Positions 8,258 through 29,368 of a DNA stretch of 64,000 nt are shown one piece after another; position 1 is the stretch's first letter; each line of letters begins with the position of its first letter. Both the position numbers and the translations under genes were made by a program. This DNA comes from Pycnococcus provasolii. Lineage: Eukaryota > Chlorophyta > Pseudoscourfieldiophyceae > Pseudoscourfieldiales > Pycnococcaceae. The notes under the pieces were generated by a model. That model was not told the origin of the DNA and did no database searches. It saw only the letters and a program-made list of their open reading frames with translations. The stretch covers positions 434,001-498,000 of the forward strand of contig OW568889.1 of NCBI GenBank assembly GCA_938743325.2. Direction: 5' to 3'.

Positions 8258-11200
8258 CTACTTCTTTGCCACGGCCTGCGCCTGGATACACGTGATGACA
8301 ACGGTGTTGACGATGTCATCCACAGTGCATCCGCGGGACAGATCGTTCACAGGCTTCTTCATGCCCTGCATGATTGGTCCCATGGCAATACATCCCGACG
8401 CCTGCTGCACAGCCTTGTAGGCGTTGTTACCGGCGTTGAGATCCGGGAACACGCACACAGTAGCCTTGCCGGCGACTGCGTTCTCCTTGCCCTTGAACTT
8501 CACCTTCGCAATCTCAGGATCCACGGCAGCGTCGAACTGGATCGGGCCCTCGTACGCCGCGCCCGTCTGGTCGAGCTCACGAGCCTTCGCTGTAGCTTCC
8601 TTCACCTTGTCAATGATCGCGCCCTTGTTCGAGTCTCCCGTGGCGTATGACAGCATCGCGACGCGCGGCGCAATGCCGAACGACTTTGCGGTAAGCGCCG
8701 ACGTTGCGGCAATCTCCGCCAGCTGGGCCGGATTTGGCTCGACGTTGATGGCGCAGTCGCCGTACACGAACACCTGGTGCGGGAGCAGCATGAAGAAAAT
8801 GGACGAGACAAGTGAGAAGCCCGGGGCAGTCTTGATCACCTGCAGCGCGGGACGCATCGTGTCCGCGGTTGTGTGGCAAGCTCCGGACACCATGCCATCG
8901 AGCGTTCCCACCGCCATGCGCATGGTTCCGTACCAGTTGAAGTCGCCTGCGATAAGATCGCGGGCCTTCTCCTCGGTCATGCCCTTCGCGCCACGGAGCT
9001 CCACGAGCTTCGCCACGAGCTCTTCGTAGTCGGGGGCATCCGGCGGGTTAATGATCTCGACTCCGGTAAGGTCCGCCTGGTGCGTCGCAGCGAGCTGCAG
9101 CACCTCTTCTGGCTTTCCGAGAACGGTGAGGTGGCACAGGTCGCGCTTCGCAAGATCCGCGGCGGCCATGACGACGCGCTTGTCCTCGCCCTCTGGGAGC
9201 ACGATTCGCATCTTCTCCGAGCGCGCCGCGGTGAAGATCTTGTACTGGAAGAGCTTCGGCGTCATGTGCATGATCTGCGACGATCCCATGATCTCCGTCA
9301 TGGACTCCTTGTCCACGGAGCTGTCCATCAGCGAGCTGATGACTTCGATCTTGGGGCTCTTGGCCGTAATCGCAATGTCCATGTTCTGCATGACCTTGAT
9401 CACCTTGTCGATGCGCATCGGCGACTGGAGAATGGGCACGGGCAGCTTGATGTGGCTCACCACCTCCTGCACCTCCTCGCCCAGCGGGTTGGAACCGATG
9501 AGCATGATGCCAGCAAGCGGCGGGATCGCCGGCGAGTTGGCGGCAAGCAGCGTGGAGAGCAGCACCGCACCCTGCGATGCGTTGATGATGATCATCGGCA
9601 TTTCCGACGACTTCCACGTGTTAATCAGGTCAGGCATGCTATCCAAGCCAACCATGATGTCATTCACGAGGCGTCCCTCGACGAGCTCAGCGCCGTACAG
9701 CGGGGTAGCGCTGCACTCGGCGGCGATCTGCGAGAGAGACTTGGATGCAATGCGCTTGTCGTGTGGGATCGTCGCAAGCACCTTGATGTCATCATCGGCG
9801 AACCTCTCGATGAGCGCCTTGCGCGTCTCTTCGTAGCCATCGGCGGGGATGCGGTTGACCATAACGCCAGCAAGATCGACGTTGTTGCCATCGACTGAGA
9901 GCTCAGCCCTCGACATCATCAGCTGCTGGTACACGGACTCAAGTGGGTTCTCGTCGCTCTTGTTCCAGTCAAGAAGCATTGCCATGGGAAGGTTGAGCAC
10001 GCCGCAGATCTTTGTGTTCCAGTCGTGCGACTCCGCGGGCAGCTCGGCACCACTCACGAGCACGAAGTCCTTTCCGGGGCTGTAGGCTTCGTACTTCGCC
10101 ACGATCTGGTCAATGAGCTCGTCTTCCTTGCCGTGAGCAAGGAGAGCCATGGCGTCGTCGATCGTCACGCCGTACATGGACTCGGCTGAGTCCGCAATGC
10201 CGTACAGCTCCTTGGCGAGCACGATCGCGTCGTCTGAGGCACCACCCTTGGCAAAGGGGCGGAAGTATCCGATTTTCGATACGGTGGTCATCGCCTGCGA
10301 GAGGATACCCACGTCGAAAATGATCTCGGATTCCGATCTGAGGACCTCAAGGTACAGGCCGTTCGTCACCTTGGCGTTCACGTCGAAGATGTTGTCAGCG
10401 CCCGGTAGGGAGGCAACCTCCATGCCACCCGAGGCCTCCACCTTGCTCACTGGCTTCGGCTTTGGCGCAACGCCCGCGACAGCAGTCGACTGCAGAGCGA
10501 TGGACAGCTCCTCGTTCGTCGGAACGATCATGATCTTCGTTCTCGACGCAGACGTCTGCAGCTGGTTAAGGCCACGCAGGGTATTGTTCTTACCCTCGTC
10601 GAGCTCAATGCCAATCGGGGCGAGGTCCTTGCACACCATTTCGCGGACAAGCTTCGCGTTCTCACCAATTCCGCCCGTGAAAACGATGGCATCACACTTT
10701 CCTCCAAGCTTCACGAGGAACGATCCCAGGTACTTGCGAACGCGGTGAACGAACACGCCAAGAGCATTTTTGTGATCCTCGCTGCCACCATCAGCACCCT
10801 CGATCACTTCGCGCATGTCGGGAGTTCCGCAGAGTCCTGCAAGGCCGGACTTCTTGTTCAGCATCGTGTCCACATCCTTCGGGGTCATTTCCTTCGCCTT
10901 GGTAAGGTGCGTGTAGATGCCACAGTCAACGTCACCGGAACGCGTTCCCATGACCAAGCCCTCGAGAGGGGTCATGCCCATCGTTGTGTCCAAGCATTTT
11001 CCCCCGGAAATGCACGCCATCGACGAGCCATTGCCAAGGTGGCACACGATCATGTTCGTGTCATCGACCTTCTTGCCAAGAGCCTCGGCGGTGGCCACCG
11101 AAACATAGGTGTACGACGTGCCGTGGAAGCCGTAACGGCGGATCTTGTCGGTCTTGTAGAGGTCGATCGGGAGCGCGTAGAGGAACGCCTCAGGTCCCAT

Positions 11201-13678
11201 CGTCATGTGGAAAGCCGTGTCAAACACGCCAACCTGTGCCACGGGGAAGAGCTTCTCGCAAACCTGAATGCCCATGAGGTTCGCCGGGTTGTGCAGCGGA
11301 GCGAGTGCAGCCGCCTCCTGGATTGCAGCCTTGGCCGCGTCATCGAGCAGCGCCGAGGCGGTGAACGTGTCTCCTCCGTGCACGACGCGGTGTCCAACCA
11401 CCTTGACATCAGCCTTGTCATTGATAACGCCTTCCAGCAGCAGCTCCACAACCTTTTCGAGACCAACGTCGTGAGTGGGGATCGGCATTTCAATCACCTG
11501 CTTAGGTTTGCCCTCCACCTCGTGCTTGATGGCGCCCGTTTCGAGGCCAATCTTCTCAACCAGGCCGCTCGCGAGAAGCGTTGCTTCCTCAGCCGAAATA
11601 ATCTCAAACACTCCGTACTTGAGCGACGAAGATCCGCAGTTGATGACGACGGCGAGCACCTTCTCCTCCGGCGGCTCGAAGCCAAGCTTCATGTCGTCGA
11701 GAGCCTTCTTCAGGGCGGCAGAAAAGTCGGCAGCCGTGTGTCCAGCAGACTTGAACGCAGACACGCACACGTCGATCTTGTTGCCTCCGATGAGGTATCC
11801 AAGTCCAAAGCCAGCGGCTGAGGTGGGTGCAAATCCGAAGAGGTCGAGGTGAGGCGCGGTGCCGTTCGACGTCGACATCGCCCACGTCTTCGACTTCACG
11901 AACGTCTCGTTCGAGAACAGCGGCACCTCAGTTCCCTTCGACTTGGCCATGGCTTCGAGCGCGTAAAGGTGACGGTCAATTCCGCCTCCCGTCACAGCAG
12001 CCTTCGTCAAGCCGGACTGCGTCTTAGCCGCCTTGAGAAGGAGATCCGTCGATCCCGGGCCATCCTTCCATGCCTCGCAGAACGCCTTGGAATCCGTCGA
12101 GCACGAGCGAATCGTCTCCGTGCGGCCGCAGAAGTACTTGCGCATTGCCGCGGCTTCGTACGTGCCACCAACCTCACCCTTCAGGCGGTAGTACGCAAGC
12201 TGGTAAGCCATCTGAACGGCGGCGTCGGGGGACAGGCCCCAAACCTTCGTGGAGTTCTTGCCCCATCCCTTGAAGGAGAGCACATTCAGATCAACGTCGT
12301 CCGCAAGCTTGGTGAACTCCGCGCCCTGCGCCTCCATCGCCGCCGTCGTGGACTCCGGGAGTGTGAACTCGAGCTTCGTCACTGGCGACTCACTCATCGC
12401 CTCGAACGTGGGCAGCGGCGACAGCGCGGGCTTGCCGGCCATGTCGGACATCACCTCGTTGATGAATCGGCCCCAGTTGGTTCCGTCGGAGTAGGAGTGC
12501 TCGAAGTTGAGCGCCATCGATCCAGCCTCCTTGAGCAGGATGAGCTGGTTCTTGTCGTACCAGCGCGACTTCATGTCACCCTTCAGGTAGGCGGCCGCCT
12601 TGTCCTCGATCGTCTCACACGGCGTGTTGTCGACGGCAATCACGATGATCGCCTTGTCGATCGTCTCGAGCGCAGTCTTGTTCGCCTCGTCGGCGATCAC
12701 CGCATCGCGCTCCGTAGCCCACACGTCACGGTCGGCTGAGGTCATCACGCAAAGCGTCGCCGCAGCAGGCTCGGAGGCGGCGCACTCGTCAATCGCCTTC
12801 GCGAGACCTGCCGCATCGAGCAGCTTCGCACCCGACTCGTCGAACACGTCGATAGAGTAGATGTTTCCGTTTGCGACGATGACGATGTTGCGCGCCGTCT
12901 TGTCCTGGTAGAACTCATCCATGTCCTTCTTCGGGATCTTCGCGGAGGAAAAGAGCTTTCCCATCACGGACATGCAAATCGGCGCCTTCGGCCAGCCATC
13001 CGGCTCCAACTTGCCATCGATCACCTTGCGCGACCACTTGGCGAAGCCGAGCGCGAACTTCGCCGCGTTCATCGTCGCGTCCTCTTTCGGGCCGTCCGCA
13101 ATCTTGAAGAACGGCGACACGTTGATGGGGTGCGAGCAGCGAAGGCCGTTGTACATGTCATCCCACAGCTTTTGGATGTAGCTGAACGGGAATCCCTCGT
13201 GCTTGTCACCCTCTTCGACGGCCGTCTGCAGCTCCTTGCCGACGCCCTCCGCGAACTCCTTCGCGGCCGCCTCGATGGCCGCGACTTCCTCGTCGGACGA
13301 AGCGACAGCCTTGCACGAGGCGACGAGCTTGGCGACGGTATCTTCCAGCTTCGGGATGGGCAGGCGTCCGAGGTTGAGGTAGTTCTCCGACGGCAGCGTG
13401 TCAAAGTTGTACGCCGGCGGTGGCGGCGGAGCGGTGGGCTTCTTCTCCGTGCTCGTGCGCTCCTTCGGCACGGACACGACCTTCTTGTCTATCGGCGCAG
13501 GCGCGGGTGCCGGTGCCGCCGCCTTGGCGGCAGGAGCGGGCGCGGGCGCGGGCGCGGGTGCCGGCGCCGCCGCCGCCGCCGCCTTAGCGGCAGGAGCGGG
13601 CGCGGGCGCGGGCGCAGGCGCAGGCGCAGGCGCCGCCGCCTTGGTGGCGGGCGCCTCCGTACTTGCTCCACATCCCAT
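8258..13678 (-). CDS. Trifunctional fusion: carnitine acyltransferase - acetate kinase - phosphate acetyltransferase, N-myristoylated
   Basis: 1,806 residues in one frame from ATG 13678. Residues 1-6 MGCGAS fit N-myristoylation at Gly2 plus palmitoylation at Cys3. Residues 9-62 form an Ala-Pro linker like those of pyruvate dehydrogenase E2. Residues 90-668 are a choline/carnitine acyltransferase closest to CPT2: catalytic His394 in NFEHSYSDG, GRTETIR (518-524), STS (602-604). Residues 673-1070 are acetate kinase: NCGSSSLKYG, GHRVVHGG, FDTAFH, FHGTS, GTRSGD, GGIGENA and the late NEEL Glu are all present. Residues 1107-1805 are a long-type phosphate acetyltransferase: P-loop-like domain without a clear Walker A, DRTGG-like domain, then the catalytic PTB domain (TMRPAL, ATGDSNKG, DLNAGNNAYK, GPIMQGMKKPVNDLSRG). 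Inferred net flow: acetyl-carnitine + Pi + ADP to carnitine + acetate + ATP, or the reverse. An upstream extension to 13885 reads repeat DNA and is rejected. Confidence 0.93.
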   Translation of the reverse strand: MGCGASTEAPATKAAAPAPAPAPAPAPAPAAKAAAAAAPAPAPAPAPAPAAKAAAPAPAPAPIDKKVVSVPKERTSTEKKPTAPPPPPAYNFDTLPSENYLNLGRLPIPKLEDTVAKLVASCKAVASSDEEVAAIEAAAKEFAEGVGKELQTAVEEGDKHEGFPFSYIQKLWDDMYNGLRCSHPINVSPFFKIADGPKEDATMNAAKFALGFAKWSRKVIDGKLEPDGWPKAPICMSVMGKLFSSAKIPKKDMDEFYQDKTARNIVIVANGNIYSIDVFDESGAKLLDAAGLAKAIDECAASEPAAATLCVMTSADRDVWATERDAVIADEANKTALETIDKAIIVIAVDNTPCETIEDKAAAYLKGDMKSRWYDKNQLILLKEAGSMALNFEHSYSDGTNWGRFINEVMSDMAGKPALSPLPTFEAMSESPVTKLEFTLPESTTAAMEAQGAEFTKLADDVDLNVLSFKGWGKNSTKVWGLSPDAAVQMAYQLAYYRLKGEVGGTYEAAAMRKYFCGRTETIRSCSTDSKAFCEAWKDGPGSTDLLLKAAKTQSGLTKAAVTGGGIDRHLYALEAMAKSKGTEVPLFSNETFVKSKTWAMSTSNGTAPHLDLFGFAPTSAAGFGLGYLIGGNKIDVCVSAFKSAGHTAADFSAALKKALDDMKLGFEPPEEKVLAVVINCGSSSLKYGVFEIISAEEATLLASGLVEKIGLETGAIKHEVEGKPKQVIEMPIPTHDVGLEKVVELLLEGVINDKADVKVVGHRVVHGGDTFTASALLDDAAKAAIQEAAALAPLHNPANLMGIQVCEKLFPVAQVGVFDTAFHMTMGPEAFLYALPIDLYKTDKIRRYGFHGTSYTYVSVATAEALGKKVDDTNMIVCHLGNGSSMACISGGKCLDTTMGMTPLEGLVMGTRSGDVDCGIYTHLTKAKEMTPKDVDTMLNKKSGLAGLCGTPDMREVIEGADGGSEDHKNALGVFVHRVRKYLGSFLVKLGGKCDAIVFTGGIGENAKLVREMVCKDLAPIGIELDEGKNNTLRGLNQLQTSASRTKIMIVPTNEELSIALQSTAVAGVAPKPKPVSKVEASGGMEVASLPGADNIFDVNAKVTNGLYLEVLRSESEIIFDVGILSQAMTTVSKIGYFRPFAKGGASDDAIVLAKELYGIADSAESMYGVTIDDAMALLAHGKEDELIDQIVAKYEAYSPGKDFVLVSGAELPAESHDWNTKICGVLNLPMAMLLDWNKSDENPLESVYQQLMMSRAELSVDGNNVDLAGVMVNRIPADGYEETRKALIERFADDDIKVLATIPHDKRIASKSLSQIAAECSATPLYGAELVEGRLVNDIMVGLDSMPDLINTWKSSEMPMIIINASQGAVLLSTLLAANSPAIPPLAGIMLIGSNPLGEEVQEVVSHIKLPVPILQSPMRIDKVIKVMQNMDIAITAKSPKIEVISSLMDSSVDKESMTEIMGSSQIMHMTPKLFQYKIFTAARSEKMRIVLPEGEDKRVVMAAADLAKRDLCHLTVLGKPEEVLQLAATHQADLTGVEIINPPDAPDYEELVAKLVELRGAKGMTEEKARDLIAGDFNWYGTMRMAVGTLDGMVSGACHTTADTMRPALQVIKTAPGFSLVSSIFFMLLPHQVFVYGDCAINVEPNPAQLAEIAATSALTAKSFGIAPRVAMLSYATGDSNKGAIIDKVKEATAKARELDQTGAAYEGPIQFDAAVDPEIAKVKFKGKENAVAGKATVCVFPDLNAGNNAYKAVQQASGCIAMGPIMQGMKKPVNDLSRGCTVDDIVNTVVITCIQAQAVAKK

Positions 13679-14190: not shown

Positions 14191-15357
14191 ACGAAGACGA
14201 AGACGAAGACCCCCCCTTAAGGGACCGACCTTAAGGGACCCTTAAGGCGCCATCACTCACCCGTTCAGACGTACCTGAGGCTCCGTCGCAGAGGAGAGTG
14301 GGAGCGCGACGGGTACTTTAGGGCGGGAGGTTGAACAGCGAGACCAGAACAGGGGCGTTCGAGGAGAGCGTTGAGCCTGTGGGGAGTAGAGTGGAGGGGA
14401 CCCGTGGTGTGCAAGCCAATAATCATGAGTGTTCCCAGCACTGAGCCAAGGCAGCCAGCCGGTTGGTTGGTTGCCCCCTGAGGTACCCTAGTCTATGTAC
14501 CTGGTTAATAGGGCCACGCACGCAAAGCACGTTGTTTCTTGCATGCAACCCACTTTCAAGTGAAAGAAACCCTTGTTCAAAGAGAACAAGCTTGCTTTGT
14601 TGAGGTTCCACGTCCACGTCCGGCCGTCCCGTCCACCTACCGTAAAGGGTTCGCTGGTATATCACCTTAGGGAGCTCGCAAGTCGCAAGTCGCCTGTGGG
14701 GATCCAGCAACACGCACGCACGCACGCACATATCCCTTCCCAAGAAACAGCCAAACAAACGCCCAAGGGTGTGCACTGTATTTCTCAACTTCGGTTGCTT
14801 GCGTTGTTCGGACTTCGGAGCCTCGTGTTGTTCGGTGCTGTTTTCTTGGGACTTGCTGTTTCTTTGAAATCCGATGCATCCACCCTCATGGACCCAAGTT
14901 CAACGTCCTTTATTCTTACCGGTATAGGTACCTAGGAACAATACAACGTTAACGTGGTAGGTACACGTGCAGTGCAGAACTGGGGTACTGTACAGTACAG
15001 AACGTATTCTGTATGTGGGACAACCACCTAGGGGGATGACCGGTCTCTCGAGGACGACTCCCAGGTTCCCCTCCCACTAGTCTATGATACGCACCAGTTC
15101 AAGGCTGAATTCAAGCACGCCCATTAGACTATTTTCCTCGCAAAGCCATGCAGGGCAAACATGGCGCAACGTTCGGTCGACACAACACACACAACACACA
15201 GCACACAAAACAAGAACAAGACGAGCTGAGAACCTCGATCGTAAGTACTACGGTAGTGGGTGTCTGGGGATCCACACGTTGCGCCTTCCGGCCGCGCCCT
15301 TCTCCTCACCGCCAATTGGGGGTGTGCGCGCCCCCCCACCCATTTTTCGTCGTGTCC
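13679..15357. promoter_or_regulatory. Divergent intergenic region with simple repeats
   Basis: 1.7 kb with no supported gene. It contains GTGTC repeats (13737-13760), a run of 16 C (13828-13843), a long AC tract, CTTAAGG words (14213-14245) and GTAC palindromes (14980-15000). Long Cys/Val ORFs here are only translations of the AC tract. Confidence 0.6.
14104..14187. repeat. (AC)42 microsatellite
   Basis: An uninterrupted AC dinucleotide run of 84 bp, followed by GACGAA triplets and a short C run. Confidence 0.97.
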
Positions 15358-18300
15358 ATGGAGGCGTCGTCGGGTGTCGTCGTCGTGCAAACGCACCGGC
15401 GCAGCCTCGGCCTCGGCTGGCACGCGCTTTCGTTTCTTGCTCTGGCTTGGGTGCACACAGCAAAAGCACTCAGCCAGCCGGCGTGCTCGCTCAACTATGC
15501 ACTCGACGTCGCGGACACGCACCTAAGCAAGGCGCAGACGGCGATAGCGAGGTGCCAGAACCATACCGCACAAGGCGCCGCGTGCGTTGCGGCGTGCCAG
15601 GCGTTCGCGCTCGCCGAAACGTTCCCTTCGTGTCAGGAAAAAACGAGTTTCAGCGAGAAGCCAAAGCCGCCGTGCAGGGCACTCTGTACGCAGTACGCGA
15701 ACGCGTGTGGACAACTCGATACCGCACTCTCGTGCCAAGCTCTTCCAACCGACTCAGGGGAGTGCACACTTGGACCCGCCGCGCTCGACGAAGTCACGCG
15801 AAGAAAGCTTGCTTCGCCATCTGACGTCGAAATATCTGCCGAGTGGAGTCCTGCAGCGGTCGAAACGTACAAGGCACACGCGCAGACGTGCGAGCCAGGC
15901 TTGCGTGCATCGCTCTTCCACGCCGGAACGCCGTACACGCTATGCCCGTCTAAGACAGACGTGGACTGTGGCACCGTCGACACGCCGCCAGCAGCGTCAA
16001 CTAGTAAGTGCGGCATCTGGCTGCGATCGCTCACAACTATGCGTGGCGGCCTCTGGGAGTCGGTTTGGCGGGTCCCGCTCTCGAAAACTGTGCTGCTATC
16101 CTTCATCAACGCAGGGGTGACGGACGATTCGGCGTTGGTCAAGGCTCTACCAGCCGGAACAGCGGTGTGCGCGTTTGGCCGCCTCTACGATTTGCCTAAG
16201 CGTCTTCTCGAGCGCCTGTCGGCAGAGGACGTGCTGAATGAGCAAGGGCTCTCTCAGCTGGTGGTTCGCTCGCCCAAGTACGAAGGCTCTATGTTCGACG
16301 CGGCTCAGGTCATCGTCAAACGGTTCAGCTACTCCACCTTCGTCCCGCACGCCAGCGGTGGTCCCTGCGCGAGCTCAGCTGCGCCGGGCGCCAGAGCAGA
16401 CAAGCCGATCGTGCGCCCCACGCCTCAGCTGATACCGGCGCGAGACATGACGTATTACAACGCCTGGGGGTTCCGCTGGCTCTCCATGTCCGCAAGCTGG
16501 CCTGGTGGCCGCGTCGCGCACTACCCCTTCCATGGCTGCGAGCAGTTCGGCTCGTCGGCGGGGAGCGTGAATTCCAACATCACGTGTGCTTCGCCGCCCT
16601 TTCGCATGATGCTTTCAAACGGAAAGGCGGGACCTTTCCACTACAACCTGTTCCTCACCACATCGCACGCGCGCGCGGGACAGACGTCGCTGAAGGCGTC
16701 CAACGACAAGGAGGGAATATCGCTGACGCTGAATGCCGAGGCAGCCCCAGGTGCTAAGGTGGCTCTGAACACCACGGCGTCGGCAAGCGCTGGTAGCGAC
16801 GGTAAAGTCGCCGTCGCCGTTTCACTGCCCGCGCTGCTTAAGGGCGGTGGAGTCGACGGGGTTGAGATTACTGTTGATGGGATTATCTACCGCGTCACTG
16901 TGCACTACCGGCCTCCCGAACGTTCGCTGCCCTTTGGCGCTTTCTGCCAGCATGACAAGGAGTGTATTAGCGATCAGTGCGACAGTGAAACGCACGCGTG
17001 CGTGGCTGGTGGTTTCGGCACAGCGTGCGGAGGTGACTTCATGTGCCAATCGACGCGCTGTGATCAGTTCGACGGCCCAGTCGCGCAGGCGCTCGCAAAG
17101 CGTGAGCGCATCCTGCTTGATTCCGAGGACGCCCATCACAGTGTTGACGAGTACAAGCAGTCATATGCACTTCGTCGCAGGTGGCTGCAGACAAGCACGG
17201 GAGTGCGCACGTCGGTTGCAGCTGCGACAGTCATCTCGATCGCCGCGCTCGGCTACAACGGCACCTGCGGGCCTGCACCAATCAACTTTGCATGTTCTAA
17301 GAACGAACACTGCCTAAGCTCGCGTTGCGCCAACGGAAAGTGCGTTTCGGCCATTCTGGGGATGCCTTGCACGACAGATTCGGACTGCATTTCGCTGAAG
17401 TGCAATGCATCGGCAGTTTGCGACCGTGCGCCACTGAATGGCGTTTGCGACTTTCAGTTTGGCGGACGAGATTGCATAACTGACAGCTGCGTGGACGTGA
17501 CATTCAAGCAGGCGAAGCCAAGTGACGGGGAATCTATCACCACCGCATTCGCATGCGGCCCAGCGGAAATCGGCTATCGATGCGCGTCGGACGAGGAGTG
17601 TATGAGCGGGAACTGCGGGAATAGTGTCGTGAGGAGGTGCGAGGAAGGGGCATTCGGCGCACACTGCACAGAGCATGTACAATGTCAGAGCTTGAATTGC
17701 AATCTTGCCCAGCGTCAGTGCAGCAAAGTGATTTTTGGCGGCGAGTGCGAGAATGACTCGGAATGCATCAGCGCGCATTGCGTCATGAATGAGACGAGAG
17801 GTAAAAAAACGTGCGAGAAGTCTAAGCGGAATGGCCCGTGCCTAGGAAATTCGGACTGCTTCTCGAACGCTGACGGTACGCGCTTTACGACGTGCATCCT
17901 CTCAGAGCAGGGGTCGGGCGTGTGTGGCCCGAGTCCGTTCGGCCTATTCTGCGAAATCGATGCCGACTGCATTACGGGGAATTGTGATTCGGGCATATGC
18001 TCGCAGGGTCGCTACGGCGCTTACTGTGAGGGTGGTGAGGAGTGCATGAGCGGGTCATGCGGCGAGAACGGTTCCTGTGGCCCGTCAGGCGTGGGTAACG
18101 AGTGCTCTTTAAATGCCGGGTGCACAAGCAACTACTGCGACTTGCAGGCGGACTCCGGGCCGGTGTGTTCTCTTGCACCATACAAAAACGCGTGTACGGG
18201 CAACGACCAGTGCATGAGCACAGTATGTGATATCAAGACGTCAACCTGCGGCGCGGGTCCGGTTGGCGTGCCATGTTCTTCAAACGAAATGTGCATGTCA

Positions 18301-18909
18301 GGCCGTTGCAGCGAAGCAAATCTGAAGTGTTCCACGAAGCCTTACAACTCGCTATGCACTGAAGATGGCGAGTGTCGCTCACAAAATTGCGACTTAACGC
18401 GAGGTGCGATTGCTAGCTATCCAGCTGGCACCGGATTGTGTGGACTCTCGCTTCCTGGCCGTGACTGCAAGGACGATGCGGAATGCACGACGGACGTCTG
18501 CTCGACGAAAGGTGCGGCCACGCCGCTAGCTCGCGACGCAAATCTCACCTCCGCACCTCCGATCACGAGCTGCGAAGGCATCGAGTGCATGGGTATGTGT
18601 GATGTTCGCACGAGATTTGGCAGTGAATGCAGCAAGAATGCCGACTGCCTCTCACACGAGTGTGACACGACGCGTCGCACGTGCTCGCAGTCTGCTCCCG
18701 GCTATCCCTGCCGTCGTGATTTCGACTGCGTGACGGACTCTTGTTTGGCAGATGGCACATGCGCGCTGCGAGGCTTTGGCACAGTTTGCGCCGCTCACGA
18801 CGAGTGCATGGGCGGCAACTGCATGCTTGAGACTAACACGTCGGACGTTCAGCGGTGTGCGCCGCCAAATGCTACGAATACCACCACGACAACCACTTTG
18901 TTCTTGTAA
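15358..18909 (+). CDS. Secreted cysteine-rich modular protein with Frizzled-like N-terminal domain
   Basis: 1,183 residues from ATG 15358. A hydrophobic stretch at about 20-38 (WHALSFLALAWVHTAKA) is a signal peptide or anchor. Residues 43-135 have cysteine spacing like a Frizzled CRD (CVAACQAF...FPSC...PPCRALC...AC). Residues about 180-510 lack tandem modules and are not recognised (contains FHGCEQFGSSAGS). Residues 520-1170 are about 19 tandem modules of 30-45 residues with the pattern Gly-x-x-Cys-x5-Cys-x-Ser/Thr-x2-Cys-x4-9-Cys, for example FACSKNEHCLSSRCANGKC. These resemble short disulfide-knot repeats such as Dickkopf-like or EGF-like ones, without an exact family match. The tail is NATNTTTTTTLFL, with N-glycosylation sites. 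The stop codon overlaps a TGTAA. Possible cell-surface or adhesion protein; function unknown. A longer frame to 15148 is less likely. Confidence 0.75.
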   Translation: MEASSGVVVVQTHRRSLGLGWHALSFLALAWVHTAKALSQPACSLNYALDVADTHLSKAQTAIARCQNHTAQGAACVAACQAFALAETFPSCQEKTSFSEKPKPPCRALCTQYANACGQLDTALSCQALPTDSGECTLGPAALDEVTRRKLASPSDVEISAEWSPAAVETYKAHAQTCEPGLRASLFHAGTPYTLCPSKTDVDCGTVDTPPAASTSKCGIWLRSLTTMRGGLWESVWRVPLSKTVLLSFINAGVTDDSALVKALPAGTAVCAFGRLYDLPKRLLERLSAEDVLNEQGLSQLVVRSPKYEGSMFDAAQVIVKRFSYSTFVPHASGGPCASSAAPGARADKPIVRPTPQLIPARDMTYYNAWGFRWLSMSASWPGGRVAHYPFHGCEQFGSSAGSVNSNITCASPPFRMMLSNGKAGPFHYNLFLTTSHARAGQTSLKASNDKEGISLTLNAEAAPGAKVALNTTASASAGSDGKVAVAVSLPALLKGGGVDGVEITVDGIIYRVTVHYRPPERSLPFGAFCQHDKECISDQCDSETHACVAGGFGTACGGDFMCQSTRCDQFDGPVAQALAKRERILLDSEDAHHSVDEYKQSYALRRRWLQTSTGVRTSVAAATVISIAALGYNGTCGPAPINFACSKNEHCLSSRCANGKCVSAILGMPCTTDSDCISLKCNASAVCDRAPLNGVCDFQFGGRDCITDSCVDVTFKQAKPSDGESITTAFACGPAEIGYRCASDEECMSGNCGNSVVRRCEEGAFGAHCTEHVQCQSLNCNLAQRQCSKVIFGGECENDSECISAHCVMNETRGKKTCEKSKRNGPCLGNSDCFSNADGTRFTTCILSEQGSGVCGPSPFGLFCEIDADCITGNCDSGICSQGRYGAYCEGGEECMSGSCGENGSCGPSGVGNECSLNAGCTSNYCDLQADSGPVCSLAPYKNACTGNDQCMSTVCDIKTSTCGAGPVGVPCSSNEMCMSGRCSEANLKCSTKPYNSLCTEDGECRSQNCDLTRGAIASYPAGTGLCGLSLPGRDCKDDAECTTDVCSTKGAATPLARDANLTSAPPITSCEGIECMGMCDVRTRFGSECSKNADCLSHECDTTRRTCSQSAPGYPCRRDFDCVTDSCLADGTCALRGFGTVCAAHDECMGGNCMLETNTSDVQRCAPPNATNTTTTTTLFL
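18905..18909 (+). terminator. TGTAA overlapping the stop codon
   Basis: The TAA stop at 18907-18909 is part of TGTAA. The first A-rich stretch follows within 30 nt. Confidence 0.4.
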
Positions 18910-21361: not shown

Positions 21362-24300
21362 ATGCCGGGTTCCCAGGTCATGATGGCTCCTTCTTCCATC
21401 AAGCTCCACGCCATCAACGCTTTAGCGCGTGACTGTAGTGTAAACCTCTTCTGCTTCCCGTACGGAGGAGGAAACGCGCGTGCTTACGACGAAGCATGGG
21501 CACAATCCCTCCCTCCTCACATACAGGCGTACGCGTTCGAACTGCCTGGTCGAGGATCCCTCTCCAACGCGCCTACCATCAACGACATTAACGTGCTCGT
21601 GAAAGCTGCGGCGGCAGCCATGAGAGAACACCTGGACAGGCCGTTCGCCATATTTGGACACAGCGTCGGCGCCGTCATGGCGTGGGCGCTTGCAAGACAC
21701 CTCGAAACGAGAGGGGATCACCACACGCCGATCGTCACAATTTGCAGCGGGCACACGGCGCCGAGTCAACCTACCACGCAAATGCACAAGTGGTCGACCG
21801 ACGAACTTGCAAATGAAATGAGAGGATGGGGAAACGTTGACGAGGAAGTGCTCTCGGACCCCGACGTCGTCGAGTTCCTGTGCAAAACACTACGTTCCGA
21901 CTTTGAAATCACAGAGACGTTCTGTGGAACGACAGAAGCTCTGAACATGGAAAGACTACGCTGTCGTCTTGTCGTGTGCGGCGGCGACGCGGACCCGCTC
22001 GTGTCCAGCGAAGAACTCAGAATATGGCACGAAGAGTGCGCGGAGACGACGACGACGACGTCCTCCTCGACACGAGTGTACGCTGGTGACCACTTCTACC
22101 TCACGCACGAAGACAACGCCGCGGACTTCGTCAGACATATGGCTGCTGATATTGACATGGCGCTGGAAGAACAAATCGCGCACGCGGATGCCCTTTACCG
22201 TGGAGAGCAGTGGACGGCTGGCTCGGAGCCTTGGCCAACGGAAAGCCTCGTGCACACGCTGTGCCTTTTCCACGACGGCGAGCCATTTGCAAACGAACTT
22301 GCCGTGTCTGGTTACCGCCGCATCTCGTCGGCGGACGGCGACGGTGATGGCGACGCGGCGGAGGAGCGCATCGCGCTCACGTTCACCGAGCTGCGCGCAC
22401 GTGCCGCGATCGTTGCTACGACGCTACGGGCACGTTACGGAGCTTCGCAAGAAAAAGTCGTCGCACTGCTCATGGAGCGCGGCGTGGACTTCACAGTTGC
22501 TCTTTTCGGCATTCTGTCGTCCGGTGCGGCATACCTTGAGCTGTTTGGCAGCTCTCCGAAGGGCGTTCTTGCGGAACAACTCGAGGCTGCATCCGCGTTG
22601 GCTACTTTGACAAATCGTGCCAACGTGCACAAGGTGCCAGATACCATCGCATCGTGCCCAGTGGTGCTGCTCGAGGATGCACTTGCCAATGATGCGATCG
22701 TGTCCGCCTCAGCCGCCGCAGACACCTTGCGCAACGAGGTGTGGAATCACATGAGCGGTGACTCGCTGTGCTTCATCGTGCTGTCGAGCGGAACGACGGG
22801 CAAGCCCAAGCTGATGATGGACCCACATCGCCTGTCGACGCACAGCTACTACTTTCGCAACAAGCGCTTCCCACTCGGACCAGGCGACACGTGCGGCATA
22901 TACGTGTTTGCCATCTGGGAGATTTTCCGACCGCTGCTCGCCGGTGCGCACGCCCTATGCATTCCCGACTCGGTACTCTTCGACATGGAGAGCCTCTGCC
23001 ACTTTGTTGGCGAAGCGGGCATCACGCAAATTCTCTTCACGCCAAGCCTGTGCGCTCAGATCTTCTCGGACAATGCATCAGTCCATCTCGCGAGCGTGTG
23101 GAGCTCGTTGAAGACGCTGCTTCTGTGCGGAGAGGTCATCACGCAGGATCTCCTGGCGACGTGCAGAGAGCGCCTGCCCCACACGGAGGTGCTCTCAGAG
23201 TACAGCATCTCCGAATGTGGAACGGTGACGCTCGGCGACGTGCGTAACACGCACCCAATGGCTCCGTACTCGCATGCCGGAACCGGTGACCCGAATGTGC
23301 GCATCTACATCCTCGACGACGACCTGAGACCTTGCCCCATCGGCTGTGTCGGAGAGCTGTACGTGGGTGGACCATGCCTTTCGAACGGGTATTCGAACGA
23401 GGAGATCACGCGAGAGCGCTTCGTTCCCGACCCTTTCGTCTCAGGTGCGGAGGCAGGCGGCGACGCGATGCCGCTCATGTTCCGAACGGGCGACGCTGGT
23501 CGGTTTGTCGACGCCGACGGTGAGCTGGCGGTAGAGTTGCACGGCCGTGTCGCGTTCATGATCAAGCTGCGCGGTTACTCGATCGTACCAGGCAACGTCG
23601 AGGCTGCCATTCTTTCGCACGACGCAATCGACAACTGCTGCGTGAAGGGAAACACGGATAAGGGAAATACCGATTTTCTCATCGCGTACAGCGTGGTGGT
23701 GAAGAACGCAACCCAGCCCACGGATGCGGAAATGAAGGAATTTCTTAAGCCACTGCTGCCACACTACTGTGTTCCATCAGTGTTCGTGTACCTCGAAGAA
23801 ATGCCTATCAACGAGAACACCGGCAAGCTTGATCGCAAGCGTTTGCCAGCGGTGAAGGCGCCAACGCACGATGCGGCACCAGATTCTGCAGCGGGACCCT
23901 CCAATGCTCCACAGCGTAAGTTTATTGTCACGGCGACAGAGAAGCGTGTCGCAGATGCGTGGTGTGCAGTTCTACCCGCTCTTGCCTCCGCGGCGGCTAG
24001 TTCCTGCACGTCTTCTAGAGAAAGCGTGGTTGACCCGTCGTCGTCCTTCTTTGACGCGGGTGGAAACTCGCTGCTCGTGACGCGCGCCATCAAGGCAATG
24101 GCTTCGGAGACGGGTGTGAAACTTGCTGTGCACGAGTTCTTCGAAAACGCGACTGTCTCGAAGATTGCAGAAGTGATTGACCGGCGTACAAAGTCAGCCT
24201 CCTCACCGCTCATCACGAGCAATGATGACGGTGGCGCTGCCTTGGTATCGAGCGCGGAGATGCCACTACCGCTTCCATTCGCCGGGTATGACAGTGCCGC

Positions 24301-27300
24301 GACTCAATCGCGTGATGTGGCCCTGCTTACTTGTGCTTTCGAACTGCCGGGAGCCAGCACAGAAACCGAGTACTGGAGTAATCTGGTGCATGCCAAGGAA
24401 TGTATCACATTCCTCACGCGTGATCAGCTCCTTGAGACTGGACTGCCTGCATCTCTCGTGGACAGCCCCGAGTACGTGCCGGCGTGTGGAATGCTGCAGC
24501 GAAGTGTTTACGGGTTTGACAACGCGTACTTCTCCATTTCCCGCCGCGAGGCGTGCATTATGGACCCTCAGCAGAGATTATTCCTTGAGTCGTGCCGAGA
24601 ATCTCTCGAGCTGTCCGGCTACGCCAATCAGCGCTACGTCCCACGCTTCGACGGCAAGCTTCCGACGGAGATGGACGATCCGTCACTACTGGACACGATC
24701 GGTTGCTACGGCGGTGTCTTCATGCCGCTGTACGGAAGACGGATGACCGCCGATCCTGAGGACCCTTCGCACGAGCTTCTCGTGGAAACGGGGTGCGACA
24801 AGGACTACACCTCGATGCGCGTGGGCTTCATGCTAAATCTCAAGGGGCCGTGCATGACGATTCAGACGTCGTGTTCGACATCGCTGGCGAATGTTGCTTC
24901 CGCCTGCAGTGGAACGTTGTCTGGTGACTGCACGATGGCACTTGCGGGAGCTTCGAGTCTGATTTTCCCGCAGCACGCAGGCTACATGTACATGGACGGC
25001 ATGCCCGTTTCACCGGATGGTCGATGCCGGCCATTCGACATCGACGCTGCAGGCACTGTGTTTTCCGATGGCGTTGGCACCGTATTCCTGAAGCACATGG
25101 GCGCCGCGAAGCGGGATCGTGACACCGTGAAGGCTGTCGTGCGCGGATGGGCGGTGAACAACGATGGCTCTTCGAAGTCGAACTTCACCGCTCCATCAAG
25201 CCAGGGGCAGCGCCTGGTTGTGCTCAAGGCACTGCGCACGGCTCGCCTGAATCCACAGGCTATCAGCTATGTCGAGGCACACGGAACGGCGACCAAGCTC
25301 GGCGATCCGATTGAGGTTGCGGCGCTCATCGAAGCATTCGGTGCGACGACTGCCAGTCATGGCGGGTCGTCTCCATCGGCGTCCAAGGCGTGGTGCGCCA
25401 TCGGGTCGGCGAAAGGTGGCATCGGCCATGCGAACATCGCGAGTGGAATGGCTGGGCTCATCAAGCTTATGCTGGTGATCCGCAATCGCCAGAATGTTCC
25501 GGTGGTGCACTTCCGGTCACCCAACCCTCTCATCCCTTTCGATGGCAGTCCCTTTAAGATGCCCATCGGACCTGAGGAGGCGGCGAAGAGCGGGCCGTCA
25601 TGCTTTGCCTTCGAGACAAATGGCAAGGATCTGATCGCCGGCATATCGAATCTTGGAGTTGGTGGCACGAACGTGCACGTGATTGTCGGAGAGGCGCCCG
25701 ACTTCAATGCCGGAGATGCGAATCACAAGTTGACCCAACTTCAGCCTAAGGCATGCGTCGTGCGCAATTTTGGCCAGCCCATTATTGTCTCAGCGTCGAG
25801 TTCTGCGTCGTGCAACGCGCTCTGCCGCCGCTTAGCCGACGTGTTGGAGAATGATTCCCGATTTGATTCGGCGGAAGCTTTCGACGATGTCGCGTACACG
25901 CTCCGCGTTGGTCGTCGCGAGCTCTCACATCGTGTGTCTGTGATAGCGACGAACGCGGCAGATGCGGCAAAAAAGCTTCGTGCGAGCTCAGCCGGCGACG
26001 AGGCAAAGAAGCCTGCCGGTATCGTGTTCCTCTTTCCCGGACAAGGTTCCCAGTACGTGAACATGGGACGCGATCTCTACGAACAGATTCCCGACGGCCA
26101 GTTCCGCCACTGGATGGACCGCTGCTTCGAGCTATTCCGTGAAGAGCTTGGCGTGGATTTGAAATCGATCGTGTACCCGTCTTCCGATGCCGATACGAGC
26201 AGCGCATCTGACATGCTCAATGACACAATCAATTCGCAGCCGGCACTGTTCAGTGTGGAATATGCGATGGCAAAGCACTTGGAAAGCCTAGGCATTCGAC
26301 CTCACGCGCTTGCTGGTCACAGCATTGGCGAGGTCGTGGCAGCTGCGCTCGCCGGTGTCTTCCCGTCCCTTGAGGTGGCGGTCAAGGTTGTATCCGCACG
26401 TGCTCGCGCAATGCAGATGGCACCTGCTGGTGCAATGCTCAGCGTGGGAATGAGTGCCGTGGAGCTAACTGCCATCATCAAGGGAGCGGGTCTTGAGAAA
26501 TCTTGCCACGTGGCGTGCGCAAACTCGCCAACGAGCTCCATCGCATGCGGCACGGATAGTGCGGTTGAGAAATTGGAATATGTGCTACCGGAGAGCGCGG
26601 CTCGAAGGCGTTTGCATGTGAAAAAAGCATTCCACAGCCCCGCACTCTCCGGTGCTGCCGAGGACCTCGTGAAAACGGTCGAGAGCATCTCCGCGTCGCT
26701 CGCAGAGCCGAAGTATCAGTTGATGAGCAATGTGACCGGTACCATGCTCATGCAAGACGACGCCGTGCGCGCACGGTACTGGGGTGATCACATCACGTCG
26801 ACAGTTCGTTTTGAGGAGAATGTCGACTTCTTGCTACAGGAAGGATACGACGCGTTTGTTGAGGTGGGGCCGATGAACACGCTAACGCGTCTGCTTCGAG
26901 AGAATATTAGCGGAAGCGCTCGATCGATTGTGCCGAGAACCGTCAACACCATGCGGCACCCGAAGGACACATCTGTTTCTGACGTGGACGCGCTCACGGC
27001 TGCTGTTTGCGCGCATTGGCGTGACGGTGGCGTGGTCGATCTCGCCTCGCCATCGTGGAATATGCTCGTTAGTTCAGCACAGGTGCTGGCACCACGTCGC
27101 ATTGAACTTTGCGCTCCCGTGCCTGACAGAAAGGAGTTCGAGCAAAAGGAGACAGCTGCCCCTGCTGCCACGGCGGTTCCGTGCTGCGATGGTAAGTTGA
27201 AAGATGTCTCAAGTTGGATCTGCGTCCCGTCGTTTGCACAGAGACCTCCATCGATGGGGAAGGCAGTAAATGATGCGAGCAACTCACGCGGCCGCGTTCT

Positions 27301-29368
27301 TCTCTTCGCGGACTGCGACGCTGCACCACTTTCTGGTGCACTAGAGAACGATGGCTGGGATGTCGCGACGTGCGCGGTGGTTGATGAGAATAAACCAGAG
27401 CACACGGGCGCCTTGACCGTGCGTAGCGGTGAGGATGAGCTGGAGGGGGATCTTGGGGCAGTTCTAGAAGCACAGAGCAGGGACTCTGGTGGTCTTCCAT
27501 CGAAGGTGGTAGTGCTTTCTAGCGGACTGAGCGATGAAGAACTCCGCGAAGATGGTTCGGTGCATGCGTACAGCTACAGTGGCTGGGTTCTGCTTCGCAA
27601 CTTGTCAGTGGCTCTGTCGCGTTATCCGGATGTCGAGGTGACAGTACATGTCGTCGCCGCCGGACTGGTGGCGGTGTCGGAGGGCGAAAAGATTCGCCCG
27701 TCGGCGTCGCTGCTGACTGGCCCGGCCATTGTGGCGCCGCAGGAATATCCCAACATATCTGTTCAGCTCGTTGACGTGCCGCTTGGCGCTGCCATGCTTG
27801 CGTCGCGCACTGTCGCCGCAATTGCCGCCGAGCTGCGTTTGCCAACTCTCGAGCCTGCGGACAAGATTATTGCAATACGCAGAAATCGAACGTGGCGCCT
27901 GTCGTACGAGCCTGCGTTCGCAGCAGCGCCGTCGCACAGCTCTGTCGCGGATGCCGCCCTCGCTCGTGGTATGGACGAGCTTGGCGCTGGCGGTAGCTAT
28001 CTGCTAACGGGCGGTCTCGGGCGCATTGGGTTGAAGCTTGCGAGAAGCATTGCCGCGGCGGTTGCAGCGCGAGGAACGAGTGCGACGTTGTACATGCAGA
28101 CGCGCTCAGGCTTCCCAGAGCGTGACGCATGGCAAGCCGCCGCTTCGTGCCCGAGCGCGGAGAGACATGCCGTGTGCATTGCGCTGCTCGACATCGAGGC
28201 GGCTGGCGAAGGCGCTGTGACAGTGCACGTGATTCGCGCGAACATTGCAGATCGTGTTGAGGTGGATGCCATGCTTCGTACCATCTCCGAGACGACGGCC
28301 ACCACGCAACTGACTGGACTGCTGCATCTTGCCGGCGATATGGACCTCCGTTACCTTGCCGACTGCACGAGCAAGTCGCTGCGGCGCCTGGCCGAGCCAA
28401 AGGTGGCATCGTTGCACAATCTCGTTGATGGTGCTCGCGTGGTGTTCTCCTCGATTTCATTTGCGGCGACGTTCTCATCCATGGCGGGTGTGCTCGGTGG
28501 GTATCAGATGGGTGCATACACGAGTGCAAACTCTTACATGGATGCATACAGCCACGCCGTCTCCTTCGACGATGACAACTGCATCGCAAGGCGGTGGGTA
28601 AGCGTTTGCTGGGACGACTGGAAGCAGGAGTACGCGGCGAATGAGCAGAATGCCGCATACGCGCTTAACAATCATGACAGATTTGCCATCGATGCCGACG
28701 AGGGATTCCGAGCGCTTGCGTATGCAATTGGCATGGAAAGCGAGCCTCAGATTCTCGTTTCGACGCGTCCTGTTCAAGGCCGTATGGAGCGATGGTGGTA
28801 TCACCGTTCGTCATCGCTAGGCAGCTCTTCGAGCGACGATGGCGAGGATTCCTCCATGTCGGGTCACTCTGACGGCGCCAGTGAGTCTTACGGCGGTGTA
28901 CTTGGAATCTGCTGCGCTGCCTATGCGACGGTTCTAGGGCTTGGGCGCGCCTCGACGGTATCTCCGAGTGATAGCTTCTACGCGCTTGGCGGTGACAGCT
29001 TGCTGACAGCCAAGGTGCTGAGCACGCTAAGAAAGTCGCTACCGTCGGAGTACGCATCCAGCCTTCGTCTGGAGAATGTGATTTCGAATCCAACGCCGTC
29101 ATCGCTTGCGGAGTGCATCGAGGGGTTAGAAAAGACAACGTCTTCCGCCGCGGAGAAGAATGGCCGGTCATTACCGCGGAATGAGAGCGCGATGTCTGCT
29201 GGCGGCATGTACGACAGTGCGGGCAGCAGGCCTCGCAAGCGCCGCGGCGCCGCCGCCCCTGCGTCAACGCGGTCGAGCACATCAGGCTCGAATCGTGGAC
29301 AGGAGAGCGACGACAGCTTGCTCGGTGAAAGCGCGGAATTCCAGCTGGATGACCACATCGTTTTGTAG
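21362..29368 (+). CDS. Hybrid NRPS/PKS megasynthase: TE-A-PCP-KS-AT-KR-ACP
   Basis: 2,668 residues in one exon. Residues 25-265 are a type II-like thioesterase at the unusual N-terminal position (FCFPYGGGNA, nucleophile S101 in GHSVG, D211, GDHFYLTHE). Residues 300-830 are an adenylation domain (SGTTGKPK, FRTGD, catalytic K822 in NTGKLDRK). In its A4 motif V515 replaces the Asp that holds an alpha-amino group. Residues 853-940 are a carrier (S903 in GGNS). Residues 984-1440 are a ketosynthase (C1171, H1307, H1356). Residues 1553-1860 are an acyltransferase (S1654 in GHSIGE, KAFHSP, malonyl-like). Residues about 2205-2480 are a ketoreductase (TGGLGRIG, Ser and Tyr of FSSIS...AYTSAN). A last carrier has Ser near 2545 in GGDS. 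There is no condensation, dehydratase or C-terminal release domain. Expected product: starter acid extended once and reduced to a 3-hydroxy acid, released by the TE. See findings for the gonyol proposal. Confidence 0.94.
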   Translation: MPGSQVMMAPSSIKLHAINALARDCSVNLFCFPYGGGNARAYDEAWAQSLPPHIQAYAFELPGRGSLSNAPTINDINVLVKAAAAAMREHLDRPFAIFGHSVGAVMAWALARHLETRGDHHTPIVTICSGHTAPSQPTTQMHKWSTDELANEMRGWGNVDEEVLSDPDVVEFLCKTLRSDFEITETFCGTTEALNMERLRCRLVVCGGDADPLVSSEELRIWHEECAETTTTTSSSTRVYAGDHFYLTHEDNAADFVRHMAADIDMALEEQIAHADALYRGEQWTAGSEPWPTESLVHTLCLFHDGEPFANELAVSGYRRISSADGDGDGDAAEERIALTFTELRARAAIVATTLRARYGASQEKVVALLMERGVDFTVALFGILSSGAAYLELFGSSPKGVLAEQLEAASALATLTNRANVHKVPDTIASCPVVLLEDALANDAIVSASAAADTLRNEVWNHMSGDSLCFIVLSSGTTGKPKLMMDPHRLSTHSYYFRNKRFPLGPGDTCGIYVFAIWEIFRPLLAGAHALCIPDSVLFDMESLCHFVGEAGITQILFTPSLCAQIFSDNASVHLASVWSSLKTLLLCGEVITQDLLATCRERLPHTEVLSEYSISECGTVTLGDVRNTHPMAPYSHAGTGDPNVRIYILDDDLRPCPIGCVGELYVGGPCLSNGYSNEEITRERFVPDPFVSGAEAGGDAMPLMFRTGDAGRFVDADGELAVELHGRVAFMIKLRGYSIVPGNVEAAILSHDAIDNCCVKGNTDKGNTDFLIAYSVVVKNATQPTDAEMKEFLKPLLPHYCVPSVFVYLEEMPINENTGKLDRKRLPAVKAPTHDAAPDSAAGPSNAPQRKFIVTATEKRVADAWCAVLPALASAAASSCTSSRESVVDPSSSFFDAGGNSLLVTRAIKAMASETGVKLAVHEFFENATVSKIAEVIDRRTKSASSPLITSNDDGGAALVSSAEMPLPLPFAGYDSAATQSRDVALLTCAFELPGASTETEYWSNLVHAKECITFLTRDQLLETGLPASLVDSPEYVPACGMLQRSVYGFDNAYFSISRREACIMDPQQRLFLESCRESLELSGYANQRYVPRFDGKLPTEMDDPSLLDTIGCYGGVFMPLYGRRMTADPEDPSHELLVETGCDKDYTSMRVGFMLNLKGPCMTIQTSCSTSLANVASACSGTLSGDCTMALAGASSLIFPQHAGYMYMDGMPVSPDGRCRPFDIDAAGTVFSDGVGTVFLKHMGAAKRDRDTVKAVVRGWAVNNDGSSKSNFTAPSSQGQRLVVLKALRTARLNPQAISYVEAHGTATKLGDPIEVAALIEAFGATTASHGGSSPSASKAWCAIGSAKGGIGHANIASGMAGLIKLMLVIRNRQNVPVVHFRSPNPLIPFDGSPFKMPIGPEEAAKSGPSCFAFETNGKDLIAGISNLGVGGTNVHVIVGEAPDFNAGDANHKLTQLQPKACVVRNFGQPIIVSASSSASCNALCRRLADVLENDSRFDSAEAFDDVAYTLRVGRRELSHRVSVIATNAADAAKKLRASSAGDEAKKPAGIVFLFPGQGSQYVNMGRDLYEQIPDGQFRHWMDRCFELFREELGVDLKSIVYPSSDADTSSASDMLNDTINSQPALFSVEYAMAKHLESLGIRPHALAGHSIGEVVAAALAGVFPSLEVAVKVVSARARAMQMAPAGAMLSVGMSAVELTAIIKGAGLEKSCHVACANSPTSSIACGTDSAVEKLEYVLPESAARRRLHVKKAFHSPALSGAAEDLVKTVESISASLAEPKYQLMSNVTGTMLMQDDAVRARYWGDHITSTVRFEENVDFLLQEGYDAFVEVGPMNTLTRLLRENISGSARSIVPRTVNTMRHPKDTSVSDVDALTAAVCAHWRDGGVVDLASPSWNMLVSSAQVLAPRRIELCAPVPDRKEFEQKETAAPAATAVPCCDGKLKDVSSWICVPSFAQRPPSMGKAVNDASNSRGRVLLFADCDAAPLSGALENDGWDVATCAVVDENKPEHTGALTVRSGEDELEGDLGAVLEAQSRDSGGLPSKVVVLSSGLSDEELREDGSVHAYSYSGWVLLRNLSVALSRYPDVEVTVHVVAAGLVAVSEGEKIRPSASLLTGPAIVAPQEYPNISVQLVDVPLGAAMLASRTVAAIAAELRLPTLEPADKIIAIRRNRTWRLSYEPAFAAAPSHSSVADAALARGMDELGAGGSYLLTGGLGRIGLKLARSIAAAVAARGTSATLYMQTRSGFPERDAWQAAASCPSAERHAVCIALLDIEAAGEGAVTVHVIRANIADRVEVDAMLRTISETTATTQLTGLLHLAGDMDLRYLADCTSKSLRRLAEPKVASLHNLVDGARVVFSSISFAATFSSMAGVLGGYQMGAYTSANSYMDAYSHAVSFDDDNCIARRWVSVCWDDWKQEYAANEQNAAYALNNHDRFAIDADEGFRALAYAIGMESEPQILVSTRPVQGRMERWWYHRSSSLGSSSSDDGEDSSMSGHSDGASESYGGVLGICCAAYATVLGLGRASTVSPSDSFYALGGDSLLTAKVLSTLRKSLPSEYASSLRLENVISNPTPSSLAECIEGLEKTTSSAAEKNGRSLPRNESAMSAGGMYDSAGSRPRKRRGAAAPASTRSSTSGSNRGQESDDSLLGESAEFQLDDHIVL

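Follow-up and report, generated by a model that had tools for sequence, protein, structure and literature searches.

A single open reading frame on the minus strand of the window (the whole 64,000-nucleotide stretch of Pycnococcus provasolii DNA that was analyzed) joins a carnitine acyltransferase, an acetate kinase (AckA), and a phosphate acetyltransferase (Pta) in one polypeptide of 1806 amino acids. The nuclear gene would encode a trifunctional enzyme, in which a short-chain (acetyl) carnitine acyltransferase precedes an AckA-Pta fusion like those of many algae. The best reading, with a probability slightly above one half (about 0.55), is a membrane-tethered enzyme that converts acetyl-carnitine to ATP and mainly runs in the ATP-forming direction. 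One polypeptide would then link acetyl groups carried by carnitine to ATP formation at the substrate level. If the enzyme is active, ATP could be drawn from acetyl-carnitine outside mitochondria, and carnitine would have a role in such algae. The parts are familiar and the three-enzyme combination looks undescribed. No description of an acyltransferase-AckA-Pta fusion was found in the titles and abstract openings of the openly licensed PMC papers that were listed, in line with the initial annotation, whose author knew of no protein with all three domains.

Domain architecture

The coding sequence (8258..13678, minus strand) runs over 1806 codons from an ATG at 13678 to a TAG at 8260-8258 and contains no internal stop, both domain junctions included. 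The uninterrupted three-enzyme frame that was initially claimed is thus present, and all three enzyme domains are matched with E-values of 2e-111 or better. E-values of this size in such a long frame exclude chance. The carnitine acyltransferase domain PF00755 (residues 106-657; 11708..13363, minus) is covered from position 1 to 573 of the 574-position profile (E 3e-144, 482 bits). Only 18 residues separate this Pfam match from that of the acetate kinase domain PF00871 (residues 676-1061; 10496..11653, minus; E 6e-141), and the AckA part additionally scores 461.9 bits with TIGR00016 (cut-off 293.4). The class II Pta N-terminal region (9410..10306, minus) is made up of AAA_26 (residues 1125-1311, E 2e-8) and DRTGG (residues 1318-1423, under its Pfam cut-off), and is followed by the Pta catalytic domain PF01515 (PTA_PTB, residues 1477-1797; 8288..9250, minus; E 2e-111). 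The NCBIfam phosphate acetyltransferase profile PRK05632 spans residues 1122-1803 above its cut-off (profile positions 20-706 of 708), which together with the N-terminal region marks the Pta part as a complete enzyme of class II.

The AckA and Pta motifs, described as complete in the initial annotation, are indeed complete when compared with solved structures. In alignments with these structures, the acetate kinase domain has all ten equivalents of Methanosarcina N7, S10, S12, K14, R91, H123, D148, H180, R241, and E384, and the Pta part retains the equivalents of R87, R133, S309, R310, and D316 (5/5). We take the listed residues of both enzymes to have their usual catalytic roles.

Proposed reaction and its direction

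The three activities share CoA, acetyl-CoA, and acetyl phosphate, a connection that had been pointed out before and is supported here. The reaction would start in the acyltransferase domain, where acetyl-carnitine and CoA yield carnitine and acetyl-CoA. Subsequently, the Pta part would convert acetyl-CoA and Pi to acetyl phosphate and CoA, and AckA would transfer the phosphate to ADP, releasing acetate and ATP. The sum, acetyl-carnitine + Pi + ADP to carnitine + acetate + ATP, would be reversible and near equilibrium. CoA would cycle between the first and the last domain, and as the CoA freed by Pta can be reused by the acyltransferase, catalytic amounts should suffice. A direct test is feasible, as the entire reaction should be performed by a single purified protein. 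The coupling of the three activities is a prediction from the sequence, and the direction of flux is a proposal.

The Pta step costs about +9 kJ/mol and the AckA step yields about -13 kJ/mol. For carnitine acetyl transfer, the accessible part of one source describes a reversible reaction with -1.1 kJ/mol towards acetyl-carnitine (PMC4959659). Taken together, these values make the sum slightly favorable towards ATP, and the net direction is set by concentrations, not by the sequence. The supply of acetyl units was approached through the genome (32.3 Mb, 46 contigs), in which profiles were searched frame by frame, so that intron-split genes can escape. Acetyl-CoA synthetase has two matches above cut-off. 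Phosphoketolase has no match in the genome with a profile that is positive in 4 of 14 controls, and the glycyl-radical domain of pyruvate formate-lyase was likewise not found (positive in 3 of 14 controls). Acetyl units would therefore come from elsewhere, most likely from mitochondria. Since the two acetyl-CoA synthetases cover acetate activation and the phosphoketolase and the glycyl-radical enzyme are unmatched, the reading leans to ATP formation. The main flux would then be towards ATP, and the protein would supply or buffer ATP locally, fed by acetyl-carnitine from mitochondria.

The same protein might instead work mainly in reverse, activating acetate with ATP and loading it on carnitine for transport into mitochondria or for storage as acetyl-carnitine; this is unlikely, though credible. 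Against it stand the low affinity for acetate that is typical of AckA and the two acetyl-CoA synthetases that already serve this purpose. On the other side, the acyltransferase equilibrium slightly favors acetyl-carnitine (PMC4959659), and the AckA/Pta route of Chlamydomonas is described, in the part of the source at hand, as reversible and as assimilating acetate in air (PMC12924338). The separate acetate kinase (ACK) and phosphate acetyltransferase (PAT) of green algae such as Chlamydomonas and Leontynka perform the same reversible acetyl-CoA/acetate chemistry as proposed for this protein. They differ from it in being encoded by separate genes and located in the plastid or mitochondrion, and a carnitine domain is not mentioned in the accessible parts of these reports (PMC3660698, PMC12924338).

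Acyl specificity of the first domain

The acyltransferase domain carries the core residues H394, K474, K478, S602, and S604, which presumably represent the marks of PF00755, namely the catalytic histidine, the CoA-binding lysine pair, and the STS motif. The catalytic His394 (12497..12499, minus) lies in NFEHSYSDG, just where it had been reported. T520 and R569 occupy the positions of Thr465 and Arg518 in carnitine acetyltransferase (CrAT), which we take to be carnitine-binding, and point to carnitine rather than choline as acceptor.

The initial annotation called this domain CPT2-like. This holds for the best PDB sequence score, which is that of mitochondrial CPT2, but the features that distinguish CPT2 are lacking. 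The CPT2 insert is missing: this protein has four residues (query 140-143) where CPT2 has 35, with query 139 to 144 facing chain 145 to 181 of 2h4t. Phe614 (11837..11839, minus) is aligned with Met564 of CrAT, whose chains have Met there, and with a Gly in CPT2. A bulky residue at CrAT position 564 is assumed to limit the acyl pocket, and the small Gly to open the long-acyl tunnel of CPT2. A mitochondrial presequence is also absent from this protein, as judged by eye. CPT2 identity was rejected on the basis of Phe614 and the missing insert.

For the pocket column, 46 rows were aligned, 42 of them picked from 120 listed matches and four added. The column is readable in 44 rows, of which 28 have Phe and 16 have Gly. 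The Phe rows include this domain, its relatives P0002 and P0036, both paralogs from the genome, and a fungal row named yat1. Every animal CPT2 row has Gly. Phe614 and the missing insert favor acetyl transfer, although they serve as a proxy, and Phe/Gly is an imperfect guide, because Gly also occurs in P0145 (Trichosporon) and its sister P0149, the latter of which is named carnitine O-acetyltransferase by its source. The acyl-pocket residue is that of fungal Yat1 and not that of CPT2, which helps the acetyl reading. The Yat1-type protein P0124 (named yat1) has its Phe within FGFGPV; it differs in being unfused, is 30% identical, and sits on a separate tree branch. For yeast Yat1, a location at the outer membrane of mitochondria is reported (PMC4959659, accessible part). 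Overall, the alignments suggest a domain that would be specific for acetyl groups.

Quite unlikely is a genuine fusion whose acyltransferase acts on medium-chain or other acyl groups, or only returns CoA to Pta, so that no pathway from acetyl-carnitine to ATP exists. The CPT2 sequence matches and the imperfect Phe/Gly guide speak for it, and so does the lack of a recognized carnitine-biosynthesis gene. The carnitine-biosynthesis profile TIGR02410 has no match in the genome, and matched no control either. The TauD family has four genome matches, and the three that were scanned include no recognized carnitine-biosynthesis gene; their only link to carnitine is a 19-bit match of one (L105) to gamma-butyrobetaine dioxygenase, with a cut-off of 415. 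Phe at the pocket and the missing CPT2 insert argue against this reading, as does the action of the partner domains AckA and Pta on acetyl or propionyl groups.

As a side observation, a single frame (L104:298-2403, minus) combines a TauD-type dioxygenase region with a cyanuric acid amidohydrolase, for which the AtzD equivalog profile scores above its cut-off.

Amino terminus and predicted membrane attachment

The protein starts with MGCGAS (13661..13678, minus), in which Met-Gly-Cys is followed by small residues. The start matches the MGC pattern of dual acylation, so that N-myristoylation of Gly2 and possibly palmitoylation of Cys3 are predicted. The acylation-type head noted earlier is therefore confirmed at the level of sequence. 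Further in-frame ATGs precede this start by 42, 48, and 61 codons, and an ATG in another frame precedes it by 40 bases. An upstream start was rejected by a coding score, for which ten of the other long frames in the window served as training set: the in-frame score is negative (-0.09 to -0.28) in five scoring intervals starting at most 300 bases upstream of the MGCGAS ATG, and positive (+0.14 to +0.63) in intervals from this ATG onward, whose context is AACATGG. A promoter/terminator scan, of a type not intended for eukaryotes, found nothing. The genome contains an N-myristoyltransferase (NMT) gene. The nearest acyltransferase relative, P0036, also has a myristoylation-like start (MGSVFS), and P0002 has no MGC start.

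Residues 7-90 (13409..13660, minus) form a spacer with 34 Ala and 25 Pro. The Ala/Pro-rich stretch had been taken for a linker similar to that of E2, which would let the enzymes swing. The stretch itself exists, but it sits before the first enzyme and not between enzymes, and the acyltransferase and AckA matches lie close together. Its position between MGCGAS and the acyltransferase supports a membrane spacer and not a swinging arm. MGCGAS and the Ala-Pro spacer probably anchor the protein at a membrane, on its cytosolic side.

Two energy enzymes, the flagellar arginine kinase AK3 from Trypanosoma brucei and the sperm hexokinase HK1S, are known to be relocated to a membrane through acylation of their N-terminus. 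In the accessible part of PMC4517888, an alignment of calflagins and AK3 shows acylated Gly and Cys followed by Ser, Gly, or Ala at positions 4-6, a pattern that MGCGAS fits, here by its sequence. Dual-acylated HK1S is described as requiring Gly2 and Cys5 (PMC4736023). Both enzymes are unrelated to this protein, and AK3 acts on a phosphagen. The flagellar arginine kinase is described as a possible ATP buffer, acylation alone is reported as insufficient for the flagellum, and a phosphagen shuttle of flagellated protists is stated to lack direct evidence, all in the same partly accessible source (PMC4517888). By analogy, acetyl-carnitine might itself serve as a phosphagen: made in mitochondria, it would diffuse to the lipid-anchored protein on the plasma membrane or the flagellar membrane, where ATP would be regenerated and acetate and carnitine released. 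This extension is rather doubtful. If true, the cell would have an energy shuttle that bears no relation to creatine phosphate or arginine phosphate.

Relatives and origin of the fusion

Each of the following two protein searches scored the ~8000 candidates that share most words with the query. A search with residues 90-1806 gave 33 matches, of which 29 (P0003-P0031) are AckA-Pta fusions without an acyltransferase, and two (P0001 and P0002) have the acyltransferase. The remaining two are giant proteins that also bear AckA. When the acyltransferase region was searched among proteins of ~990-3160 amino acids, four matches were obtained: P0001, P0002, and a pair of fungal proteins that lack AckA. 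The added acyltransferase is thus seen only here, in P0001, and in P0002 among the candidates scored.

P0001 is a gene call from ENA that is 99% identical with few residues different. It covers residues 71-168 and 882-1806 and skips residues 169-881, so elsewhere, too, a single gene call holds both ends of the protein. P0002 comes from a set of eukaryote proteins, is 45% identical, and has the acyltransferase and AckA in the same order according to its Pfam listing. By alignment, it continues into the Pta N-terminal region and ends opposite residue 1394, without the Pta catalytic domain. An assembly join, which the initial annotation had named as a possible refutation, was rejected as unlikely, since the frame is open through the junctions and P0001 and P0002 keep the domain order. 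That neighboring genes were read as one through a gene-model or assembly artifact is highly improbable: both P0001 and P0002 are incomplete and no second full-length copy is among the proteins found, but the stop-free frame across both junctions, the shared order in both relatives, and the fusion of the AckA-Pta part in 29 other proteins stand against it.

Without the acyltransferase, AckA-Pta fusions are common (29 of 33 matches). The order AckA then Pta in one chain is shared by all 29 proteins according to their Pfam listings, and the checked catalytic residues agree with this protein in the four that were compared; their difference is the missing carnitine acyltransferase. Organism names are available for 9 of the 29, all of them algae: Rhodomonas lens, Prymnesium parvum (twice), Chrysophaeum taylorii, Pseudo-nitzschia arenysensis, Aureoumbra lagunensis, Seminavis robusta, Chlorarachnion reptans, and Triparma verrucosa. 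Among six sequences inspected by eye, some have an organelle-like leader and some start almost directly with AckA. The Rhodomonas lens fusion (P0004) carries EF-hand domains, located by eye in the Pta N-terminal region, which suggests calcium control. The two giants, whose domain names are presumed from Pfam accessions, are P0032 (2440 amino acids, with Armadillo/HEAT-type repeats) and P0033 from Omnitrophica (2679 amino acids, with Pta, PF00294, and PF01182). Among the best 80 of 319 relatives on prokaryote contigs, no match range extends below residue 645, which leaves the acyltransferase uncovered. Viral contigs gave two pattern matches, none of them confirmed.

In an AckA-Pta tree of 29 rows without the long-branched P0030 and P0031, this protein and P0002 are sisters (100/99); in a quick tree that includes these two, the pair is not exclusive. 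The nearest acyltransferase is P0036, which is 51-52% identical, has 643 amino acids, and lacks AckA. It may be cut short, as its source contigs have at most 2100 bases. An acyltransferase tree of 22 chosen rows joins P0036 and this domain at 100/100, and groups them with P0002 weakly (46/69 in the best tree). An exclusive sister pair of this domain and P0002 is rejected (p-AU 4e-53). Because P0036 lacks AckA and the sister pairing is rejected, a single fusion event is not established. The trees are compatible with one fusion followed by a later split, or with one fusion and a truncated P0036; there may also have been two separate fusion events.

Genomic context

In the frame-by-frame search, AckA and Pta have one match each in the genome, both in this gene, and carnitine acyltransferase has three. 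Of the other two acyltransferase genes, L001 ends in a C-terminal hydrophobic tail with the stop seen, and L003 has a presequence-like start, both judged by eye; these features would fit a shuttle.

Several side observations were made in the genome searches. A pyruvate formate-lyase N-terminal piece (G000:C22:482806-483339, minus; profile 12-195 of 744) is directly followed, in another frame, by a match to the C-terminal part of the pyruvate formate-lyase-activating protein (94-234 of 235). Open frames of 17190 codons (G000:C30, near 53803-64350) and 13856 codons (C5, near 1096681) have below-cut-off matches to AMP-forming acetyl-CoA ligase and perhaps encode giant polyketide or peptide synthases. 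The light-harvesting family has 51 matches; for two compared with the PDB, the best-named proteins are the chlorophyll a/b-binding Lhca3 and CP29. Such proteins mark the green lineage, so the genome probably belongs to a green alga, or less likely to an alga whose plastid is green-derived.

The neighbors in the window are ordinary eukaryotic genes, including Tub, a cupin/JmjC protein, an EF1A-type GTPase, and CDC50, together with a Pex2/Pex12-like protein, a sulfotransferase, and a polyketide synthase. A Cys-rich frame of 1253 amino acids (15148-18909, plus) has many short C..D.CMSG.C repeats and no Pfam match at E 0.001. A frame of 2668 amino acids (21362-29368, plus) combines an N-terminal thioesterase with AMP-binding, ketosynthase, acyltransferase, ketoreductase, and carrier domains.
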